From Microbacterium sp. (GTDB lineage Bacteria; Actinomycetota; Actinomycetes; Actinomycetales; Microbacteriaceae), in assembly GCF_017305435.1 (NCBI RefSeq), contig NZ_JAFKIP010000003.1, positions 186,001-250,000 of the forward strand: DNA of 64,000 nt, given 5' to 3'. Positions 1 to 9,301 of the stretch are shown here, one piece after another (position 1 is the stretch's first letter; every line of letters starts with the position of its first letter). The position numbers and the translations under genes are program-made. The notes under the pieces were generated by a model. It was not told where the DNA came from. It did not search any database and worked only from the letters and a program-made list of their open reading frames with translations.

Positions 1-2322
1 GTCGATCTCGTGCCGCGGATCGGAGCTGAGCAGCCCCGACGCCACGTAGCGTTCGAGGGGCTGCGCGGTCAGCAGGACGCGCGGCGGCAGCCCGAGCATC
101 GCGGCCTGCAGGAGACGTAACTCCACCCAGATCGGGTCCAGACGCTCTGAGAGGGATGCCGCGGCGAGGGCGCCACGCGGGCTCGCGATGTACGCACCGG
201 GCACGACGGCGGGCGCGAACGGCTCGGCGAGTGCGACGATCGCGTCGGCTTCACCGGCATCCGACACGTTCCGCACCGACAGGTGGACGCGTGGTCCTCC
301 CTCGCCCTCTATGTGTCCGCGAGCCGCGGCGAGACCGCGCAGCTGCGAGGTGAGCAGCGCGGGAACCCCGACCGGCAGCGCCAGCTCCGGGCGCACATCG
401 GTGAGCGCCACGGACTGCAGCAGCTCGCTCGTCTCGTCGACGAGGAAGTCGATGGCGCGCACGCCGAACTCCAGGTCGCCGGCGGCGGCGAACAGCGGCG
501 CGAACGCCGTCTCGATCACCGCCGACAGCCGCGCAAGCCCCGCCTCACCCGGTTCGGGCGCGCCGATCTCGCGCAGGATGTCGGTGAGCTCGGGGCTCGT
601 CGCGAGCGCATCCGCCGCCGCGACGACCACGCCGACGGCGCCGAGGTGGCGGGCGCGGGCGATCTCCTCCGCGGTTGCGGCGCGCGCGAGGAGGTCGACG
701 CCTGCGATCGCGCGGCAGTACGCCATCACGGCGTCGAGGTCGGCGTTGCCCGTGAGCGCATCGACGACGGGGATCCGCCCGGCGTAGACCTCGCCGGTGC
801 CGCCGTCGACAGAGACCCAGTCTCCTTCGCGGAGGGAACGGTCCCCGACGCGCAGCACGTCTCCGTCGATCGACAGCGGGGCGCAACCGACGACGCACGT
901 CTTGCCGAGGGCGCGCGCGACGACCGCCGCGTGCGATGTCGCGCCCCCGGTCGCGGTCACGACGCCAGCGGCGGCGATCATGCCGTGCAGATCTGTCGGG
1001 CTCGTCACCTCGCGGACCAGGATGACCGACTCGCCGGAACGCGCAAGCTCGCCCGCACGGTCAGGATCCAGGGCGACGATGCCGCTGACGTTCCCGGGGG
1101 ATGCGCCGATGCCCTCGGCCAGCAGGTCACCCGACGCGCGAGCCGCACCGACGGCCTTCTCGTCGAAGGCGGGGCGCACGACGCCGCGGATGTGGTCGAG
1201 GGTGACGGTCTCGAGGATCGATGCCGCCGTATCCCCGTTGTCGCGCAGGAAGTCCGCGGCGATGCGGACAGCCGCGGGCGCCGTGCGCTTTGCCGAACGC
1301 ACCTGAAGGAAGTACAGGACTCCCGACTCCACGGTGAACTCGATGTCGAGGACATCTCTATGCGCGTCTTCGAGCGCGGCGACGGTGCTGCGGAGCTCGT
1401 CGAACAGCTCCGGCTGATGCGCGGCGAGGGAGGCGACCGGTTCAGGGGTGCGGATGCCGGCGACGACGTCTTCACCCTGACTCGCCGCGAGGTATTCGCC
1501 GTAGAGGCCGGGCTCGCCCGTAACCGGGTTCCGAGAGAACACCACACCCGATCCGGAATTCTCGTCGCGGTTGCCGAAGACCATCGTCTGGACGACGACG
1601 GCCGTCCCCATCGCGTGGTCGATGCCGTGGAGCTCGCGATACGTGATCGCACGCCGTGTGTTCCACGACCGGAACACTGCGGCGATCGCGCCGAGGAGTT
1701 GCTCGTGCGGGTCATCGGGAACGGTGTCCTCGCCCGCCGCCTCCAGCTCATCCTGCAGGCGGCGCCAGACGGCGTCGTAGACGGCGCCGGCTTCGGCATC
1801 CTCGCCGAGCTCGTCAAGGACGGCATCCACGGGAGATGCAGGCGGCTCCATCGCATCGAGCACGATCTCGGCGTACATCGCATGGAATCGCGCGAGGATG
1901 TCGGCCATGAACCGCGCGCTGCCCGAGCGGCGCGCGACAGCGATCGCGGCGTTCCGGTCGAGGCCGAGGTTCAGGACCGTGTCCATCATCCCCGGCATGG
2001 AGATGGGCGCCCCCGAGCGCACCGAGAGCAGAAGCGGGTCGTCGGCACCGCCGAAGGCGCGTCCCGTCGCCGCCTCGACCTGAGCGAGGCGGCGATGGAT
2101 GTCGCGGACGAGGCCCTCCGGGAGCGACCGCTCGCGGAGGTAGGCCGCGCAGCATGAGGTTGCGAGGACGAATGCCGGCGGCACCCGGAGACCCCGGCGC
2201 GTCATCGAGACGAGGCCCGAGCCCTTGCCGCCCAGGAGTGCGCGGTCGTCGGTCCCCGCGTCGGCGACGAAGTAGGTGAGGTCGGTGTCGAACGCGACCG
2301 TTCCGGTCGCCGTAGCCACCAC
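1..2322 (-). CDS. PPDK-like PEP-utilising enzyme (partial, C-terminus off window)
   Basis: The 774 visible residues start at a GTG two bases after the upstream stop, behind a GGAAGGAG ribosome site. The N-terminal half is a nucleotide-binding domain like that of pyruvate phosphate dikinase: LLGGKGSGLVSM near residue 30 and SMPGMMDTVLNLG near residues 108-120 are PPDK hallmarks. A swivel domain follows with GGATSHAAVVARALGK; His464 is the expected phosphorylated histidine. The part that should be the PEP/pyruvate-binding barrel (about residue 540 onward) is alanine-rich and lacks the usual GLxRTEHMF-type and MIEVP-type motifs, so it may not use PEP or pyruvate in the standard way. It is the last gene of a four-gene operon with a separate swivel protein, so a dedicated phosphotransfer role is more likely than housekeeping PPDK. 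A normal PEP synthase exists at 55.1 kb. Confidence 0.8.
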   Translation of the reverse strand, partial: MVATATGTVAFDTDLTYFVADAGTDDRALLGGKGSGLVSMTRRGLRVPPAFVLATSCCAAYLRERSLPEGLVRDIHRRLAQVEAATGRAFGGADDPLLLSVRSGAPISMPGMMDTVLNLGLDRNAAIAVARRSGSARFMADILARFHAMYAEIVLDAMEPPASPVDAVLDELGEDAEAGAVYDAVWRRLQDELEAAGEDTVPDDPHEQLLGAIAAVFRSWNTRRAITYRELHGIDHAMGTAVVVQTMVFGNRDENSGSGVVFSRNPVTGEPGLYGEYLAASQGEDVVAGIRTPEPVASLAAHQPELFDELRSTVAALEDAHRDVLDIEFTVESGVLYFLQVRSAKRTAPAAVRIAADFLRDNGDTAASILETVTLDHIRGVVRPAFDEKAVGAARASGDLLAEGIGASPGNVSGIVALDPDRAGELARSGESVILVREVTSPTDLHGMIAAAGVVTATGGATSHAAVVARALGKTCVVGCAPLSIDGDVLRVGDRSLREGDWVSVDGGTGEVYAGRIPVVDALTGNADLDAVMAYCRAIAGVDLLARAATAEEIARARHLGAVGVVVAAADALATSPELTDILREIGAPEPGEAGLARLSAVIETAFAPLFAAAGDLEFGVRAIDFLVDETSELLQSVALTDVRPELALPVGVPALLTSQLRGLAAARGHIEGEGGPRVHLSVRNVSDAGEADAIVALAEPFAPAVVPGAYIASPRGALAAASLSERLDPIWVELRLLQAAMLGLPPRVLLTAQPLERYVASGLLSSDPRHEID

Positions 2323-2324
2323 GC

Positions 2325-2942
2325 TCACTCCTTCCGGGCGCGCCCGAGGGTGCGCAGGAGGTCTTCGTGGAATTCGAACCACACGTTGTGGATCGAATCG
2401 CGCACGGGCGAAGAGACCAGGTCGACATCGCCGCGATTGACGGCGTCACCGGCATCCGCGAACCGGCGCACGTACGCGTGGAAGCGGGGATCGCGAGCCT
2501 CCAGCACCTCGATCAGGCGGGAGAGGCGCGCGACCTGCTTGTCGAGCCGGTCGAGGATCTTGCCGTCGTAGTCCGCGTCGGCGTGATCGTTGGCGACCTT
2601 CTTGCCGCCGACCTCAACGAGCTGCCACGCGCTGATCGTCTGGAGGAACTGCGAGTTGACGACCTCGAACCGCTCGGCCATCTCGTGGACCTCGGGGTCC
2701 TCGCGCAACTGCGCGTATCGCTGGGCGGCCGCCTGGGCCAATTGCTCGGTGGCGTCGTCGCTCGGCAGTGCCGCGTCGCCGACCATGACGAGCGATCCCT
2801 GATCGGCGAGGCGATCCAGCGCGGCACGCGCTTCGGCTTCGGCCACATCCGTCGCCGCGGCGATCTGCGCGGCGGTGGCCATCTTCTTCAGCGCGACGGC
2901 GTTGAGGACGGTGTAGTCGGTGTCGGTCAGGGTGTCGGTCAC
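2325..2942 (-). CDS. Unrecognised 205-residue helical protein of the PEP-swivel cluster
   Basis: I do not recognise a named family. The GTG start at 2942 gives a protein beginning MTDTLTDTDYTVLNAVALKK, with GGAGG about nine bases upstream; a longer open frame upstream is low-complexity and unlikely. Residues 5-65 look like a winged-helix fold (VLNAVALKKMATAAQIAAAT followed by AEARAALDRLADQGSLVMVG). The rest is charged and helical, with a basic end (LGRARKE). There is no signal peptide or membrane segment. The stop lies two bases before the PPDK-like start, so the two are probably translated together. It could be a regulatory or scaffolding subunit of a multi-subunit phosphotransferase; this is inference from position only. 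Confidence 0.75.
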   Translation of the reverse strand: MTDTLTDTDYTVLNAVALKKMATAAQIAAATDVAEAEARAALDRLADQGSLVMVGDAALPSDDATEQLAQAAAQRYAQLREDPEVHEMAERFEVVNSQFLQTISAWQLVEVGGKKVANDHADADYDGKILDRLDKQVARLSRLIEVLEARDPRFHAYVRRFADAGDAVNRGDVDLVSSPVRDSIHNVWFEFHEDLLRTLGRARKE

Positions 2943-3048
2943 GATCGTGGCCTCCGGGATCGGGAGTGCGAAAGAGGGATGACGGTGCGGCCGCGGGTTC
3001 TTCCGTCCGCGGCCGCACCGGGTCTGTGTCGGTCGGGCCGGCGAGGCG

Positions 3049-4488
3049 TCAGAACAGCTGCGCGTACTTCGACGCCCGGATGTCCGCGTTCTCACCGAAG
3101 GGGAGGTATCCCGCTCCGGAGAAGATCTTCAGCGGCACCGTCTCCTGCGCGAATCCGCGCTTCTGGATGTCGTAGTAGTAGTTCGCGACGCGCTGGTCGA
3201 CTTCCTTGATCTGCCACTCGTTCACGGCGCGGTCCCACGTACCGGCCTTCCGGAGGTGCGGGAGGATCATGCCGTAGTAGTAGACGTCGTGGCCGGCCCA
3301 GATGAGCTCGCGCTTGGACATCGTCGACACCTTGCGGTACAGCTTCAGCGTCGCGCGCTGGATCTTCTCGAGGTCCGTGCCGAGATCGGCGATGGGGATG
3401 TTGCGCACCTCGCCCATCGGGGTGTCCCACTTCTCCCGCGCGAAGACCGCGCCCCCGACGATGTAGGGGATGTAGTTCTTCGGACGCGTGAAGGTCGTGC
3501 CGATGTCGTTGACGCGAATCTCCTGCAGGCCCATGGCGTTCGCGTCCAGCACGATAGCCAGGGTGTACGCGTGGGGCAGCCCCTCATCCTCGCAGACATC
3601 GCTCCAGTGGTACTCGGCCTCGTTCACGAACAGGTCCCGAAGGATGAGGATGTTCCCGTCGGGGAGCTCGTACGGTCCGGTGTCGCCGAGTCCGAGGCGG
3701 CAGTCGAAATGGTCGAGGAACGAGAGCAGCTCGGCGGCGGCGTTGAAGCGCGTGAACGAGTCGTGCGCGGGACTCCCCGGCTCGAGCTGCTCCACCTGGG
3801 AGATGATCGGCTGCAGGAAGTCGTCGTCGTGGATGGTGCAGCGGTAGCGGTCCTGCGAGTTCAGCAGGTAGCCGTCCTGCTTCTTGCCCCACAGCACGCG
3901 CTGCATGAACTTGAGGATGTCGTTGCTCTCGGCGACATAGTCGTCGGCCTTGATCGCCTCCAGCGCGAGCAGGCCGCATCGGCCCATGCCGAAGCCGACC
4001 GCGCCAATCGACCAGTCGTGCACCGCGTTGATCTTCGTGCCGATCTCCCGGCGGGCAGAGGCGCCGATCTCGAGCACGCCTTCGGCGCCGACCTCGTCGG
4101 TCGTCTTCCGCAGGAATTCGGGCCAGCGGTAGAACTCGTGCATGAAGGCGAGGATCTCGTACTCTTGCCGCGGGATCATACCCGAGACGCCCTCTGTGGC
4201 ACGCATGACCAGAACATCCCAGATGTTCCAGGCCAGGTAGTTGTTGAGGTCGTTGAGCTCGTCGATCGTGAACTGGTCCTTGAGGACCTCTTCGCGGCTG
4301 ACCTTCTCGAGCACCTTCGACTTCGCGCGCTGCTTCTGCACCTTGTCGCCGAGGATGCCGTCCTTGAGTGGCTCCTGCCCGACGAAGTTGCCGACGAACT
4401 CGAGGTCCTGGAAGCGGAGCCCGTCGTCCTCCTCGCGGTAGCGGTCTTTGTATGTGGCCTTCTGTCCGGCCTCGAACTGCATCGTCAT
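3049..4488 (-). CDS. Unrecognised 479-residue soluble protein of the PEP-swivel cluster
   Basis: The protein runs from MTMQFEAGQKATYKDRY to a C-terminal ASKYAQLF and has no signal peptide or transmembrane segment. It is rich in aromatic and acidic residues (HDVYYYGMILPHLRK; RVANYYYDIQKRGF) and has a notably balanced composition for this genome, typical of a conserved enzyme. No P-loop, Rossmann glycine pattern or metal-binding cluster stands out. GAGGA lies about ten bases before the ATG. It is between the stand-alone swivel domain (44 bases upstream) and the 205-residue protein (about 100 bases downstream), in one transcription direction. Given its partners it may be the acceptor-substrate subunit of a PEP-type phosphotransferase. 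I cannot support a named function. Confidence 0.8.
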   Translation of the reverse strand: MTMQFEAGQKATYKDRYREEDDGLRFQDLEFVGNFVGQEPLKDGILGDKVQKQRAKSKVLEKVSREEVLKDQFTIDELNDLNNYLAWNIWDVLVMRATEGVSGMIPRQEYEILAFMHEFYRWPEFLRKTTDEVGAEGVLEIGASARREIGTKINAVHDWSIGAVGFGMGRCGLLALEAIKADDYVAESNDILKFMQRVLWGKKQDGYLLNSQDRYRCTIHDDDFLQPIISQVEQLEPGSPAHDSFTRFNAAAELLSFLDHFDCRLGLGDTGPYELPDGNILILRDLFVNEAEYHWSDVCEDEGLPHAYTLAIVLDANAMGLQEIRVNDIGTTFTRPKNYIPYIVGGAVFAREKWDTPMGEVRNIPIADLGTDLEKIQRATLKLYRKVSTMSKRELIWAGHDVYYYGMILPHLRKAGTWDRAVNEWQIKEVDQRVANYYYDIQKRGFAQETVPLKIFSGAGYLPFGENADIRASKYAQLF

Positions 4489-4532
4489 GTCCTGTTCCTC
4501 ACTTCTTCGTGTGGTGGTCTGCGCGCCGTCGA

Positions 4533-4946
4533 TCAGACCTCGACGACGCGTCCCGTCTCGGAGTCGTCCACTTCGAGGCGAACGCGCTTGCCTTCCAGGC
4601 CTGCGCGGATCTCCTCGAAATGCGCTTCATCGGTGTTGCCGACCTCGTAGCGCGAGTCGCTCGAGGTGAGGTGGGCGGTCATGACGCACGGAGTCTGGAA
4701 CTCGCGCGACAGGATGCCGAGGTGCGATTCGGGCGCACCCGACATCGTGATGATGCCGATCGCGCCCATGCTCAGCGCGGGGGACAGGAACGTCGTGGTC
4801 CCGCCGCGAACGAGCAGGATGTGGTCCTTCAACTTGCCGCTCGAGAGCAGGGCGATGACGTCTTGCGGGGAGCCCAGGAACTTTACTTCGCCTTCGGGCT
4901 GCTTGTTGGTTTCGAAGGCATTGAAGCCCTCAGCGAGAACAGTCAC
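4533..4946 (-). CDS. Stand-alone PEP-utilising swivel (mobile) domain protein
   Basis: This 137-residue protein consists almost only of the phosphohistidine swivel domain found in PEP synthase, PPDK and enzyme I. GIITMSGAPESHLGILSRE (residues 64-82) aligns with the family pattern GGxTSHxAIxARE, and His75 takes the place of the phosphorylated histidine. Cys88 in QTPCVM matches the region after the motif (GIPAVV in PEP synthase). The start is GTG with AGGAGG six bases upstream. No ATP-grasp or PEP-binding barrel is attached, so the phosphoryl group must come from a partner, most simply the PPDK-like protein encoded at the end of the operon. Phenylphosphate synthase is a known precedent for PEP-synthase domains split over subunits; equivalence is not shown. 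Confidence 0.82.
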   Translation of the reverse strand: MTVLAEGFNAFETNKQPEGEVKFLGSPQDVIALLSSGKLKDHILLVRGGTTTFLSPALSMGAIGIITMSGAPESHLGILSREFQTPCVMTAHLTSSDSRYEVGNTDEAHFEEIRAGLEGKRVRLEVDDSETGRVVEV

Positions 4947-5086: not shown

Positions 5087-5665
5087 TCACCCCTCGATCA
5101 GAGACCGCAACGCCATGTCCCCCAGGATCCGTCCTGCGTCGCGATGCGTGGCGGGTGCCGAGTACGGCGTCGAGTTGAGGAGGCCGAAGGTCCCCAGAAG
5201 ACGCACCTGACGCTCGGGCCCGGAGAGGTCAGATCGGTGGCGAGCGAGCACGCCGTCCCAGTTCTGGACGTACTCGCGCTGCAGCGCGCGGACACGACGG
5301 TTGACCTCGACGGGCAGCTGGGCGAGCTCACGATCCTGGATGCGGATGATATCCGGCTCGCTCGTGGCGAAGTCGATGTGGAAGCCGATGAGAGCGACGA
5401 GCGTCTCGAGCGGGGTCAGCTTCTCGGCCAGAATCTCCCGTGCACCCGCGACGAGCTGCTCACTCGCTCCCTGCAGCAGCTCCTGCAGCAGCTCATCCTT
5501 GCTGCGGACGTAGTTGTAGAGCGCAGGGCCGCTCATACCCACGGCATCCCCGAGTTCCACCGTGGAGACCGCGGCGAACCCGCGCTCGGCGAAGAGCCCG
5601 GCGGCGGCCCGCAGCAGCTCGGCGCGACGGCTCGCCTTCTGCACAGCGCGCCATCCCGATGCCAT
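5087..5665 (-). CDS. TetR/AcrR family transcriptional regulator
   Basis: A 192-residue protein with a typical N-terminal TetR helix-turn-helix: RAELLRAAAGLFAERGF, then VSTVELGDAVGMSGPALYNY with recognition helix and VRSKDELL. The C-terminal ligand domain (TPLETLVALIGFHIDFATSE) resembles acyl-CoA-responsive TetR proteins such as the KstR2/FadR-like group, so a CoA thioester effector is possible. Translation probably starts leaderless: TAGACT (5672-5677 read on the minus strand) is six bases before the ATG. It is transcribed in the same direction as the PEP-swivel operon, whose promoter region carries a 7-bp-arm palindrome 20 bases after this gene's stop. Confidence 0.85.
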   Translation of the reverse strand: MASGWRAVQKASRRAELLRAAAGLFAERGFAAVSTVELGDAVGMSGPALYNYVRSKDELLQELLQGASEQLVAGAREILAEKLTPLETLVALIGFHIDFATSEPDIIRIQDRELAQLPVEVNRRVRALQREYVQNWDGVLARHRSDLSGPERQVRLLGTFGLLNSTPYSAPATHRDAGRILGDMALRSLIEG

Positions 5666-5688: not shown

Positions 5689-5773
5689 CGAGGCTACGCC
5701 TCGCGAATCCCCGTCGATACGCCGCGCTGCACGCGGCTACTCAGGGACCGACGGCTGCGAGGCTACGCCTCGC
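5689..5773. repeat. Paired CGAGGC-TAC-GCCTCG hairpins around a TGAGTAGC/GTATCGA dispersed repeat
   Basis: Two near-identical hairpins (5689-5703 and 5757-5773, stems CGAGGC and GCGAGGC, loop TAC) flank a minus-strand copy of a small element (5714-5743) that reads TGAGTAGC, a GC-rich stem, then GTATCGA. The second hairpin overlaps the stop codon of the transglutaminase gene, so it may end that transcript. A second copy of the TGAGTAGC/GTATCGA element lies at 7584-7611. I recall this repeat type as common between genes in Microbacteriaceae; its function is unknown to me. Confidence 0.6.
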
Positions 5774-6635
5774 GGGTGATCGTCACCTGGACGTGCAGCT
5801 CGCCCTTCACCGGGCCCGCGTAGACACCGCGGAGCGGCGGCACGTCGTTGTAGTCGCGACCCCGCCCGACGAGCACGTGCCGGTCACCGATCTCGCTGCC
5901 GTTGGTCGGGTCGTAGCCCTGCCAATCGCCGCCGAACCACTCCACCCACGCGTGCGACTCACCCGTCACGGGCACGCCGACTTCGGGGTGCGCGCTCGGG
6001 TGCAGGTAGCCGGACACGTACCGCGCCGGGATGCCGACCTCCCGGAGCGCCCCGAGCGTGATGTGGGTGATGTCCTGGCAGACGCCCTTGCGCTCGACCC
6101 ACGCCTCGGCGCCCGTCGAATGGACGCCCGTCACGCCGGGCATGTACTCCACGGCGTCGCCGATCGCTCCGGCGATCGCGATGGCCGCCCGCCCCGGGTC
6201 GGTGTGCTGCGATGCGATCGAGCGCGCGATGTCGGCGACCTCGGGGTGCGGCGCCGTGCGTGCGGACTGCCCGAGCATCTCGACGGTCGCGATCGAGCGC
6301 CCCGCCTCGCGTTCCAGACGGTCCCACGCGATGTCGGCGAACTCGATGGGCCGGGGCCGCACCTCGACGAGCGAGCGGGACGTGATGTCGAGCGCACTGT
6401 GCCCCGCGAGCACGTCGAACGCCGCGACGCGCGTGCCGAAGTAGTCGGTGTAGTAGTTGACGCTCGTGGACGGCTCGATGTCGAGCTGCGAGCTCAGCAC
6501 GAACTGCGCGTCCGTCGACCCCGGCAGCATGCGCGCCTCGTTGTAGGAGGCCCCGACATCGCCCGGGTAGGTGAACCCGGTCGCGTGCTCGATACGCAGC
6601 CGACGGACGGTACCGACGGTCTGGCGAAGGGTCAT
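5763..6635 (-). CDS. Transglutaminase-like cysteine peptidase family protein
   Basis: A 290-residue protein with the N-terminal beta-sandwich typical of this family (residues 10-130) and a transglutaminase core. WVERKGVCQDITHITLGAL supplies the catalytic Cys186, SHAWVEWF the histidine and YDPTNG the aspartate. There is no signal peptide, so it acts in the cytoplasm. The ATG overlaps the upstream alpha-E stop by four bases (ATGA). Together with alpha-E and the circularly permuted ATP-grasp protein it forms a conserved bacterial cassette that has been predicted to make and cleave a peptide or amide product; the natural product is unknown. A longer in-frame extension upstream was rejected because it is arginine-rich and overlaps alpha-E. 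Confidence 0.9.
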   Translation of the reverse strand: MTLRQTVGTVRRLRIEHATGFTYPGDVGASYNEARMLPGSTDAQFVLSSQLDIEPSTSVNYYTDYFGTRVAAFDVLAGHSALDITSRSLVEVRPRPIEFADIAWDRLEREAGRSIATVEMLGQSARTAPHPEVADIARSIASQHTDPGRAAIAIAGAIGDAVEYMPGVTGVHSTGAEAWVERKGVCQDITHITLGALREVGIPARYVSGYLHPSAHPEVGVPVTGESHAWVEWFGGDWQGYDPTNGSEIGDRHVLVGRGRDYNDVPPLRGVYAGPVKGELHVQVTITREA

Positions 6636-7564
6636 GAGGTCTCTCCGATCCAGCTGGGCTCGGCGTGCGTCGGGAAGAAGCGGTCGCGGATCGCCTCCGA
6701 CGCCTGACGCGTCACCTTCTGCACCTGCTCCATGTGCTCGGGCAGCTCCGCGAGGATCTCCTCGATCGGGCGGTACTCGAGGTCGTTGCGGATGCGGCCG
6801 AGCGCCCGCAGCACGGTGTTCGAGTGGCCCACGCGATCGGCGACGGGGTCGATCGCGCTCATGCAGTTCTCGGCGACCGTGATCGAGTGGATCACCGACC
6901 GCGGGAACAGGCGGTCGAGCAGCAGGAACTCGGCGGCGTTCGCGGCGCTCGGCATCCCGCGATACGTGCGCAGGTAGGCCTCGTAGGCGCCGCACGAACG
7001 CAGGATCGTCGTCCAGGACGGGCCGGATGCCTCGGTCAGGGCGCGTGTCGCGAGGAGGCGCGCCGTCATGTCCGTGCGCTCGATCGCGCGCCCGAGCGTC
7101 AGGAACTGCCAGGCCTCGTCACGGCTCGTCGACGAGTCGGTCACCCCGATCGCGAGGGCCGAACGCTCGCGCACCCACTGGAAGAACTCGTGCGCCTTCT
7201 CGTTGTTGATCCGCCGCGGCATCCGCGAGTAGGTCGTGTTGAGGGTCTCCCAGATCTCCGTCGACACGATCTCTCGCGCGCGACGCGCGTTCTCGCGGGC
7301 GGACTGCAGCGCGTACGCGATGCTCGACGGGTTCGTCCGGTCGACGGCGAGACTCGTCAGCACGTCGCCGCGCGTGACGTCCGCGGTCGCCGGCGGGGGG
7401 AACGACCCCATCACTCCCATGAGCGAGCGGCAGGCCGTGTCCTCGTCGATCCACGGGTCTTCGAGAAGGAGCTGCAGGTGCACGTCGAGAATCCGCGCCG
7501 TGCCGTCGGCACGCTCGATGTACCTCCCGATCCAGAACAGAGATTCGGCGATGCGACTAAGCAT
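6632..7564 (-). CDS. Alpha-E domain-containing protein
   Basis: A 310-residue all-helical protein of the alpha-E family. It starts MLSRIAESLFWIGRYIERAD, the diagnostic beginning (ARxxESLFWxGRYxER), and repeats the pattern inside (LGRAIERTDMTARLLATR near residue 160). The family always accompanies the circularly permuted ATP-grasp protein and transglutaminase and is thought to be part of the same amide-bond system; no reaction has been assigned. It overlaps the transglutaminase start by four bases and begins about 60 bases after the ATP-grasp gene, with a small dispersed repeat between them. Confidence 0.9.
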   Translation of the reverse strand: MLSRIAESLFWIGRYIERADGTARILDVHLQLLLEDPWIDEDTACRSLMGVMGSFPPPATADVTRGDVLTSLAVDRTNPSSIAYALQSARENARRAREIVSTEIWETLNTTYSRMPRRINNEKAHEFFQWVRERSALAIGVTDSSTSRDEAWQFLTLGRAIERTDMTARLLATRALTEASGPSWTTILRSCGAYEAYLRTYRGMPSAANAAEFLLLDRLFPRSVIHSITVAENCMSAIDPVADRVGHSNTVLRALGRIRNDLEYRPIEEILAELPEHMEQVQKVTRQASEAIRDRFFPTHAEPSWIGETS

Positions 7565-7583
7565 CGCGGCCTCCTTCGGTTGT

Positions 7584-7611
7584 TGAGTAGCGCCCGCAGG
7601 GCGCGTATCGA
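7584..7611 (+). repeat. TGAGTAGC/GTATCGA dispersed hairpin repeat, copy 2
   Basis: The element reads TGAGTAG, then a GC-rich stem-loop (CGCCC-GCA-GGGCG), then CGTATCGA. It matches in form the minus-strand copy at 5714-5743. It sits in the short gap between the ATP-grasp and alpha-E genes, inside what is otherwise one transcription unit. Confidence 0.6.
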
Positions 7612-7627
7612 AACACGGCGATGCGGC

Positions 7628-9301
7628 TCAGCACGATGCCACCTGCCCCTGCTGCTGCTGCTCCTGCTGCTCCGAGAGCGGGCCGGCGTCGCGCGGGGCC
7701 TGGGCGGGCGACGCCTGCGGGTCGTAGATGATCGGGATCGCCTGCGTGACGGATGCCTGGTCGGCGACCAGGCTCGCCAGGCCGCCCGACTCGTGGGGTC
7801 CCCGGATGCTCCGCTGCGGCGCGTCGCCGCCGACGATCCAGGTGTCCTTCGATCCGCCGCCCTGCGACGAGTTGACGACGAGCTGCCCCTCGGGGAGCGC
7901 GACCCGGGTGAGCCCGCCGGGCAGCACCCAGATGTCGTCGCCGCTGTTGACCGCGAAGGGGCGCAGGTCCGCATGCCGCGGCCGCATGCCGTCCTCCACG
8001 AGCGTCGGGATGGTCGAGAGCATGATGACGGGCTGCGCGATCCACCCGCGGGGGTCCTTGATGAGCTTCTTGCGCAGCTTCTCGAGTTCCGCGGGCGAGG
8101 CATCCGGCCCGACGACGAGCCCCTTGCCGCCGGAGCCGTCGACGGGCTTCACAACGAGCTCGTGCAGGCGGTCCAGCACCTCTTCGAGCGCCGCCGGCTC
8201 CTCGAGGCGCCACGTGTCGACGTTTCCGAGGAGGGGCTCCTCGGACAGGTAGTAGCGGATGAGGTCGGGCACGTACGTGTAGAGCAGCTTGTCGTCGGCG
8301 ACGCCGTTGCCGACCGCGTTCGCGATCGTGACGTTGCCGAGCCGTGCGGCGAGCATGAGGCCCGGCGCGCCGAGCATCGAGTCGGCACGGAATTGCAGCG
8401 GATCGAGGAAGTCGTCGTCGACGCGGCGATAGATGACGTCGACCCGCTTGGGGCCGCGCGTCGTGCGCATGAAGACCTTGCCGCCGAGGCACTGCAGGTC
8501 GCGGCCCTCGACGAGCTCGACGCCCATGAGGCGGGCGAGCAGGGTGTGCTCGAAGTAGGCCGAGTTGTAGACGCCGGGCGTGAGCACCACGACGTTCGGA
8601 TCCTCGACACCGGGCGGCGCCGAATTGCGCAGGGCGTGCAGCAGCTTGTTCGGGTAATCGCCGACCGGCTGCACCCGCATGGAGTGGAAGAGCTCGGGCA
8701 GCGTCTGCGCCATGACACGTCGGTTCGAGATGACGTAGCTCACGCCGGAGGGCACGCGCACGTTGTCCTCGAGCACGCGCATCTCGCCGTGCTCGTCGCG
8801 GATGAGGTCGATGCCGGCGACCTGGATGCGCACACCGTTGGCGGAGTGGATGCCGGCCGCCTGGCGGTAGAAGTACTGCGAACTCGCGATGAGCGCCGCC
8901 GGCAGCACGCCGTCGCGCACGCAGTACTGGTGGCCGTACGCGTCGTCGAGGAACGCCTCCAGCGCGCGCACCCGCTGCTTGACACCCGCCTCGACGCGGG
9001 ACCACTCGTCGTAGTCGATGATGCGGGGCACGGCATCCAGCGGGAACGGCCGCTCCTCACCCGCGAAGTCGAACGTCACGCCCTGTGCGAGGTACGAGCT
9101 GGCGAGCGACTCGGTGCGGCCGCGCAGCTCCTCCTGCGTGAGCTGCGCGAGCGCCTGGTACAGCTCTCGGTACGCCGCGCGGGAGGGGGCCTCCTGGCCC
9201 GCGTGCGCGGGGTGCTCGAACATCTCGTCGAACGCGGGTACGCCCGACACCGTCTTGCGCGGCGCCAGCGTGGAGCCGTAGCCGTCGAACAGATCACCCA
9301 T
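7628..9301 (-). CDS. Circularly permuted type 2 ATP-grasp protein
   Basis: A 557-residue protein of the circularly permuted ATP-grasp family. Recognisable pieces are MGDLFDGYGSTLAPRKT at the start, RVLEDNVRVPSGVSYVISNR (about 170-190), NAVGNGVADDKLLYTYVPD (about 330) and VVKPVDGSGGKGLVVGP (about 385-400, the nucleotide-binding lysine/glycine loop). Family members are predicted carboxylate-amine ligases working with alpha-E and transglutaminase proteins, which follow here. The last 35 residues are a low-complexity tail with a run of glutamines (SEQQEQQQQGQVASC), an unusual end. Transcription is probably leaderless: TAGGCT (9308-9313, minus strand) lies six bases before the ATG. Confidence 0.92.
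   Translation of the reverse strand: MGDLFDGYGSTLAPRKTVSGVPAFDEMFEHPAHAGQEAPSRAAYRELYQALAQLTQEELRGRTESLASSYLAQGVTFDFAGEERPFPLDAVPRIIDYDEWSRVEAGVKQRVRALEAFLDDAYGHQYCVRDGVLPAALIASSQYFYRQAAGIHSANGVRIQVAGIDLIRDEHGEMRVLEDNVRVPSGVSYVISNRRVMAQTLPELFHSMRVQPVGDYPNKLLHALRNSAPPGVEDPNVVVLTPGVYNSAYFEHTLLARLMGVELVEGRDLQCLGGKVFMRTTRGPKRVDVIYRRVDDDFLDPLQFRADSMLGAPGLMLAARLGNVTIANAVGNGVADDKLLYTYVPDLIRYYLSEEPLLGNVDTWRLEEPAALEEVLDRLHELVVKPVDGSGGKGLVVGPDASPAELEKLRKKLIKDPRGWIAQPVIMLSTIPTLVEDGMRPRHADLRPFAVNSGDDIWVLPGGLTRVALPEGQLVVNSSQGGGSKDTWIVGGDAPQRSIRGPHESGGLASLVADQASVTQAIPIIYDPQASPAQAPRDAGPLSEQQEQQQQGQVASC

Follow-up and report, generated by a model that had tools for sequence, protein, structure and literature searches.

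A widespread, microcompartment-linked kinase system with a predicted role in tertiary-alcohol activation

Introduction

Phosphotransferases that split an ATP-grasp domain and a phosphohistidine swivel domain over subunits, and that act on a small alcohol or phenol, include the phenol dikinases HpeHI, CreHI and PpsAB as well as rifampin phosphotransferase (RPH). Pyruvate phosphate dikinase (PPDK) and phosphoenolpyruvate (PEP) synthase carry a barrel with a binding Arg. In Sterolibacterium denitrificans a 25-hydroxysteroid kinase and a 25-phosphosteroid lyase (25-PSL) handle steroids; in the part of the description drawn on here, that kinase is monomeric (43 kDa) and bears little resemblance to known phosphotransferases, and the next step is taken by a hydroxylase. 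Metabolosome bacterial microcompartments (BMCs), among them EUT, PDU, RMM, ARO and the unassigned MIC and MUF types, are marked by BMC-H, BMC-T and EutN shell proteins, EutJ, an acylating aldehyde dehydrogenase (ALDH) and an alcohol dehydrogenase (ADH). Here we describe a locus in a 64,000-nucleotide stretch of a Microbacterium sp. genome (contig NZ_JAFKIP010000003.1, positions 186,001 to 250,000; hereafter the window), where four adjoining minus-strand genes, read as one operon from the list of open reading frames (ORFs; window 1-4946), encode a stand-alone swivel subunit, a 479-residue protein (K479), a 205-residue protein and a PPDK-like protein. The system is real, widespread and co-inherited, and we describe it as a BMC-linked tertiary-alcohol kinase.

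This locus shares the BMC genes listed above, but the signature step that we propose for it, a kinase, a phosphate lyase and an encapsulated phosphatase, sets it apart from the known metabolosomes. Unlike in HpeHI and RPH, a PPDK-like protein supplies the ATP-grasp domain and retains both a swivel of its own and a degenerate barrel, an extra free swivel is present, and a winged-helix-like subunit is added. The binding Arg in the barrel of PPDK and PEP synthase is absent, and a phosphatase would stand where the Sterolibacterium pathway has its hydroxylase.

Distribution and gene content

An alignment of six K479 sequences, used to scan the genome collection, gave 136 confirmed stretches, and the best 80 of these make up 78 loci. 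In 69 of these, the close loci, K479 identity is at least 60%; the nine lower ones stand outside the counts over 50 loci, which cover the close loci flanked by 6.5 kb or more on each side and exclude the 19 with short flanks. Locus ORFs were started at the start codon nearest the match, and their lengths are approximate. The close loci are found in Actinomycetota, in Alpha-, Beta- and Gammaproteobacteria and in one Eremiobacterota bin, and K479 matches occur in eight plasmid records; the locus is plasmid-borne in Rhodococcus oxybenzonivorans (pRB98) and in Methylibium petroleiphilum PM1.

Among the 50 well-flanked loci the swivel gene is present in 50, the gene for the 205-residue protein in 48 and the PPDK-like gene in 47, and genes for a DUF7064 protein and a HAD hydrolase are present in 45 each. 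All four kinase genes stand together in 47, the four with DUF7064 and HAD in 42, and any BMC marker is seen in 42. DUF7064 and HAD are missing from five loci: in four (L027-L030) the flanks end inside BMC genes, before the place that the pair occupies in our own genome (G000), and the fifth is L088. The swivel gene precedes K479 in 69/69 close loci and lies within 200 bases of it in 67. The same gene order is found again in distant bacteria, which confirms that the four-gene arrangement exceeds chance.

Close to home the picture is different. K479 has no match in the other 37 relatives covered by the search, of which 22 belong to the genus (the genome itself being the one hit in 38), and it matches in 6 of 396 phylum-sample genomes, our own included. 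Because the closest ALDH among the other 98 genomes of the genus has only 44% identity, the locus looks acquired. On the K479 tree the presence of a BMC requires three changes (bootstrap range 3-3). One locus titled Klebsiella pneumoniae, from a metagenome-assembled genome (L072), clusters with proteobacteria in that tree and is probably a misbinned contig. An unannotated Paraburkholderia plasmid (L018) carries the full kinase with DUF7064, HAD, ADH, ALDH and a ligase and no BMC, and another locus (L060) has two consecutive DUF7064 matches that may reflect a duplicated or split gene.

Subunits of the predicted kinase

The stand-alone swivel subunit (window 4533..4946, minus strand, 137 residues) carries its phosphohistidine, His75, in the motif TMSGAPESHLG, matches Pfam PEP-utilizers at 2.2e-7 and aligns with other swivels at a profile probability of 94.7. 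The motif T[ML]SG[AV]PESHLG recurs in 67 of the 69 close loci; the two misses are short ORFs of 49 and 111 residues (L059 and L092). The PPDK-like gene (1..2382, minus strand) runs on 234 bases past base 1, so that 794 of its 871 codons lie inside the window; the full ORF is at L006:7767-10382 in the genome sequence. It combines an ATP-grasp nucleotide domain (PPDK_N, 2.3e-39) with a swivel (PEP-utilizers, 7.9e-23), the two parts expected of RPH- and HpeHI-type dikinases. Its own swivel motif, TATGGATSHAA, is kept in 60 of 61 sequences, the single miss being a truncated ORF, and places the catalytic His at 484 in the longest ORF or at 464 if translation starts 20 codons later.

The C-terminal barrel of this protein is another matter. 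Alignments to solved PPDKs (phmmer) stop at query residues 592 to 685 depending on the chain, and the best stretch of a weaker chain stops at 316. Invariant positions number 115 before residue 551 and 7 from there to 871. The column of Clostridium symbiosum PPDK R561, which we take to be the PEP-binding Arg, is occupied by Val, Leu, Ile, Ala or Met, with Arg in none of the 61 aligned sequences, our own among them. These sequence comparisons confirm that the PEP/pyruvate barrel is degenerate and the PEP site lost. We therefore reject PEP-dependent transfer and, because the site is lost, the donor is probably ATP.

K479 (3049..4488, minus strand, 44 bases from the swivel gene) has no Pfam family above cut-off, no NCBIfam match at E 1 and no match among PDB sequences at E 10 (phmmer); a six-sequence profile against PDB gave two chance rows alone, at E 0.3 and 1.1. 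A Foldseek search found no known fold convincingly matched, and RPH is absent among the best 50 of its 57 matches, though it may still be related. The 205-residue protein (2325..2942, minus strand, 106 bases beyond K479, its start codon being our choice) has a winged-helix-like N terminus (MarR_2 at 2e-4, under the Pfam cut-off), but conservation among 50 sequences peaks at the C terminus, in DS.H..WFEFHED, and not in the winged helix.

Fusions tie these parts together. In Rhodococcus opacus B4 (L014) a single annotated 793-residue protein contains the swivel, K479 and the winged-helix part, with Pfam matches at 57-108 and, under cut-off, at 606-654; residues 160-213 of the 205-residue query match the same ORF at 44%. 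The three parts also share one open frame in L100, L103 and L104, and swivel and K479 alone do so in L099 and L102, whereas L096, L097 and L101 keep a separate swivel. The swivel precedes K479 in all six fused frames, where that of HpeHI and RPH is C-terminal, and follows it only in divergent split sets, namely the second set of PM1 and L098. The latter has a K479 relative at 41% with a 205-residue relative adjoining. Because it is fused in relatives and conserved outside the winged helix, we read the 205-residue protein as an enzyme subunit rather than a regulator, and it looks like a member of the complex. K479, from its position and the fusions, is presumed to be the alcohol acceptor subunit.

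Taken together, it is highly probable that the system is a kinase complex. The sequence-only reading had placed four PEP-phosphotransfer genes here and suggested that they could encode a kinase of several subunits that phosphorylates an unusual substrate. The ORFs, the free swivel with its His75, the degenerate barrel and, with the later start, a His464 all bear out its observations, and its interpretation is partly supported, in that a multi-subunit kinase acting on a small and unusual compound fits the evidence. Two tests had been named, tabulation of co-occurrence and a search for known unrelated families among the 479- and 205-residue proteins: the four genes keep company, three of the parts are fused in four relatives, and neither protein reached a known family by sequence search or Pfam cut-off, so that neither outcome named as refuting the single-complex idea arose. 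Its "ATP- or PEP-dependent" donor narrows to probable ATP, and its analogy to phenylphosphate synthase holds in logic. A relation of K479 to that layout did not appear, with an hhalign probability of 0.2 against 92.1 for a positive control; the four C-terminal-swivel proteins compared were picked by layout, their N termini are perhaps cut, and they are at most putative HpeH proteins.

The adjoining microcompartment locus

The four kinase genes adjoin a BMC locus, since its genes lie directly past base 1, and it is this locus, outside the window, that suggests the function of the kinase. A convergent set there encodes a CoA-acylating-type ALDH, EutJ and a BMC-domain shell protein (in G000, BMC domain and Aldedh by Pfam, EutJ above the NCBIfam cut-off), together with a relative of a PM1 gene annotated malate dehydrogenase (47%, tblastn), a Zn-type ADH and a large regulator that we read as GAF/PucR-type. 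Farther out are BMC-H and EutN (assigned with tblastn and from how these genes are annotated in pRB98 and PM1), the DUF7064 protein, the HAD hydrolase, a tyrosine-phosphatase-like protein, an HpcH/HpaI (CitE-like) lyase, a MaoC protein, both subunits of a methylcrotonyl-CoA carboxylase (MCC)-type enzyme and, by our reading, a BioY-like ORF. BMC-H, BMC-T and pentamer genes alongside a CoA-acylating ALDH make this a metabolosome shell locus.

The HAD hydrolase differs between loci with and without a shell. Its length is 304-389 residues where the BMC locus is complete (46 loci) and 216-268 residues in nine loci that have no BMC, and each of the three BMC-less clades of the K479 tree has the short form; the medians of five other proteins differ between the two groups by 1 to 18 residues. 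The nine exclude L072 (220 residues), L080 (351) and the plasmid locus L018 (230). Ala, Arg, Pro and Gly abound in the extra part. An amphipathic spacing is present in the last 35 residues of 40 of the 47 tails, whereas 500 shuffles averaged 5.7 such tails and never exceeded 14. The 2021 BMC catalog, in the section concerned, describes an encapsulation peptide as an amphipathic helix of 15-20 residues on a flexible linker, which the length and residue spacing of the tail match; targeting is thus predicted. From the tail and its distribution, a phosphoester is probably taken into the shell and cleaved inside it. A role for HAD as a pyrophosphatase is possible, given a weak PpaX match. The DUF7064 protein has the predicted two-barrel, AttH-like fold of 25-PSL, and may eliminate phosphate from a tertiary phosphoester.

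Aldehyde dehydrogenase, carboxylase and soluble variants

Every one of the 46 readable ORFs of the BMC ALDH, which represent 45 distinct genes, has the motif NGTACVAEQ, where Ala precedes the catalytic Cys. The set comprised 52 ORFs of at least 50% identity, six of which end before the motif, and the pRB98 and G000 genes entered twice from overlapping loci. Five PDB relatives shown have Ile at that place and three AdhE proteins of the genus have Val. Becher's CoA-acylating prenal dehydrogenase (2018), in what is excerpted of it, reportedly has Ala there too and converts prenal to 3-methylcrotonyl-CoA. The Ala-Cys pair, shared with that enzyme, points to prenal. The closest plasmid match of the BMC ALDH outside Rhodococcus is in Methylibium PM1 (58%).

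Sequence models place the carboxylase, alpha and beta, in the MCC type. The alpha subunit matches BT_MCC_alpha (1.2e-19). The beta subunit scores 3e-247 against AccD1 of Mycobacterium tuberculosis, 1e-221 against MCC and 7e-140 against the geranyl type; it also scores 3e-217 against 9tps, which is named propionyl-CoA carboxylase, other chains so named giving 1e-77 or weaker. It is the sole MCC-type beta subunit in its genome, the next match being 34%. A Pseudomonas beta subunit scores 1065 bits with MCC and 480 bits with the geranyl type. A geranyl (C10) pathway is weakened by this assignment.

MCC genes lie next to BMC genes in G000 and pRB98. In Endobacter (L068) ALDH, MCC, MaoC, CitE and a 3-oxoacid CoA-transferase subunit are followed by DUF7064, HAD and the kinase, and in Pseudomonas NFACC02 (L095) the kinase is followed by MCC beta, a hydratase and MCC alpha. 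Six BMC-less loci (L064, L069, L076, L077, L079 and L095) have a soluble ADH, ALDH and AMP-ligase instead, a route that would reach the same acyl-CoA. A biotin synthase (L068:2096-3082) and the BioY-like ORF (G000, L019:10086-10718) stand beside MCC genes, as if biotin supply co-travels.

A proposed pathway and its alternatives

2-Methyl-3-buten-2-ol (MBO) is a volatile of trees and also a metabolite of bacterial fuel-oxygenate breakdown, and tertiary alcohols like it do not undergo direct oxidation. We propose that the four proteins would form one ATP-dependent dikinase, in which the PPDK-like subunit would pass a phosphoryl group from ATP to its own swivel His, then to His75 of the stand-alone swivel, and from there to an alcohol held on K479; the 205-residue protein would be a structural or activating subunit. 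The alcohol would be tertiary, allylic and C5, most likely MBO. The DUF7064 protein would ionise the tertiary phosphate, and return of the phosphate at the far allyl end would give prenyl phosphate, from which HAD, sent into the BMC by its C-terminal peptide, would free prenol inside the shell. ADH and the CoA-acylating ALDH would then take prenol by way of prenal to 3-methylcrotonyl-CoA, and MCC, the MaoC hydratase and the CitE-type lyase would yield acetyl-CoA and acetoacetate. The genes present and their joint conservation, the fusions, the loss of the PEP site, the predicted folds, the motif and the HAD tail are observations; catalysis at each step, the sequence of phosphoryl transfers, targeting to the shell and the identity of the substrate are inferred. 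A dikinase is chemically sensible because tertiary phosphoesters, as stated in the source text drawn on, contain more energy than a single ATP bond can easily supply. MBO is a plant volatile (PMC7728719, in part), and an account of PM1 states that MBO breakdown there possibly begins with isomerisation to prenol by enzymes uncharacterised as of 2016 (PMC4791888, in part). PM1 carries this BMC locus.

We consider a tertiary or allylic isoprenoid alcohol the likely substrate class, and MBO itself an evenly balanced choice within our estimate; the scheme as a whole, from four-part ATP dikinase through DUF7064 and the shell HAD to the MCC route for MBO, we judge slightly better than even. We would go a little less far than that in proposing, tentatively, a hemiterpenol microcompartment, a new class of organelle in which a two-swivel, four-subunit ATP dikinase with an acceptor subunit of no recognised fold and a phospho-allyl mutase of 25-PSL fold would be the long-missing enzymes that convert MBO to prenol. 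If true, the locus names all candidate genes for that conversion together and supplies a signature reaction for a BMC in which the entry step had not been apparent, and swivel-type dikinases may gain a third acceptor design. Neither Methylibium nor a dikinase is mentioned in the main text of the 2014 or of the 2021 BMC catalog, and the shell type could appear there under another name. In the open-licence literature covered, no paper pairs a microcompartment with phenylphosphate synthase, and among the best 30 of 88 matches none pairs one with MBO, prenol or prenal.

Several observations weigh against this scheme. The roles of MBO as substrate and of K479 as acceptor are deduced from context. 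The fold of the DUF7064 protein is common to hydratases and pericyclases, with top rows nearly tied, and by sequence it has no 25-PSL match at E 10. Amphipathic spacing is absent from 7 of 47 HAD tails, and L080 has a tailed HAD of 351 residues with no BMC seen, one flank being 2 kb. No recognised PPDK lies within the flanks of L065, L067 and L081, and L067, L072 and L081 have within their flanks neither BMC nor soluble oxidation route. MCC is next to the kinase in 2 of 69 close loci (L068 and L095; flanks up to 10 kb), and the hydratase on the MCC side in Pseudomonas fits the gamma-carboxygeranoyl-CoA hydratase model above cut-off, so C10 substrates are possible. In PM1 the BMC-linked K479 is a 105-residue remnant whose surroundings yielded no swivel, and some 23 kb from it is a second, divergent set (31% identity); for these reasons PM1 gives less direct support than G000 or pRB98.

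The same hydratase match speaks for another isoprenoid alcohol handled by the same kinase-lyase-phosphatase logic: isoprenol (3-methyl-3-buten-1-ol) to prenol via a phosphate, linalool to geraniol, or a different branched tertiary alcohol, for example tert-amyl alcohol. 25-PSL, of the same fold, is described in the available text as taking a bulky substrate, and the two DUF7064 genes of PM1, with a second PPDK near a Rieske oxygenase and a tyrosine-type phosphatase, may mean two alcohols. Both carboxylase beta subunits tested are MCC-type rather than geranyl, however, and the Ala-Cys ALDH indicates prenal, and we regard such a substrate as unlikely. It is improbable that the DUF7064 protein is an independent hydratase or isomerase and that the kinase serves separate salvage or regulation, for instance as a PTS-like sensor of shell cargo. 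The AttH-like fold, in the descriptions drawn on, takes in hydratases and pericyclases, and the 205-residue protein is winged-helix-like, but kinase, DUF7064 and HAD stay together even without a BMC, and the 205-residue part, whose conservation is highest outside the winged helix, forms a fusion with kinase parts in four relatives. Phenol activation, our first idea from HpeHI, was dropped on the BMC, DUF7064 and carboxylase evidence. An Hpe-like kinase that phosphorylates a phenolic compound ahead of carboxylation would account for ATP-grasp and swivel parts alike in kind to HpeHI, CreHI and PpsAB (PMC12167813, in part) and for the biotin carboxylase and phosphatases nearby. We nevertheless hold it to be very improbable: the conserved genes include no aromatic-ring gene (the maps cover 22 queries, and further genes may have escaped them), the carboxylase is of MCC type, the lyase-fold protein and acylating ALDH have no role there, and K479 is unmatched to the acceptor layout tested.

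Divergent sets and other genes of the window

Besides its BMC locus, PM1 has a divergent module (L021:44094-47885) with a second DUF7064 gene, a 415-residue K479 relative, a 153-residue protein and a swivel gene. On its plasmid at 500-509 kb (L105), a second PPDK-like gene and tyrosine-type and histidine phosphatases flank a Rieske oxygenase/PDR reductase pair, presumably MdpJK, hinting at a second tertiary-alcohol kinase set. A further divergent module (L023) has a 415-residue K479 relative, proteins of 152 and 190 residues, a PPDK-like gene and an ORF that we read as aminoglycoside-kinase-like. On a Rhodococcus pyridinivorans plasmid (L016:13611-21173), a 238-residue PEP-utilizing protein, two proteins of 525 and 202 residues that we do not recognise and a 579-residue PPDK-like protein adjoin biotin carboxylase genes, perhaps with a further acceptor type.

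Upstream of the operon lies a TetR-family regulator (5087..5665, minus strand; SACE_7040 family, 185.8 bits against a cut-off of 250). The sequence-only reading had suggested that it could control the cluster, which the distribution tells against: none of the 69 close loci has a relative at 35% identity or more, and the gene is, from these comparisons, local and outside the conserved set. The ppsA-like gene noted elsewhere in the window is indeed there, a further PEP-utilizer gene with a ppsA-sized, 817-residue open frame at window 56289 (C7:242289), and it has the strongest domain score in the genome. An ordinary cluster with Alpha-E and circularly permuted ATP-grasp proteins (Pfam) and, by our reading, a transglutaminase-like protein occupies 5763-9301.

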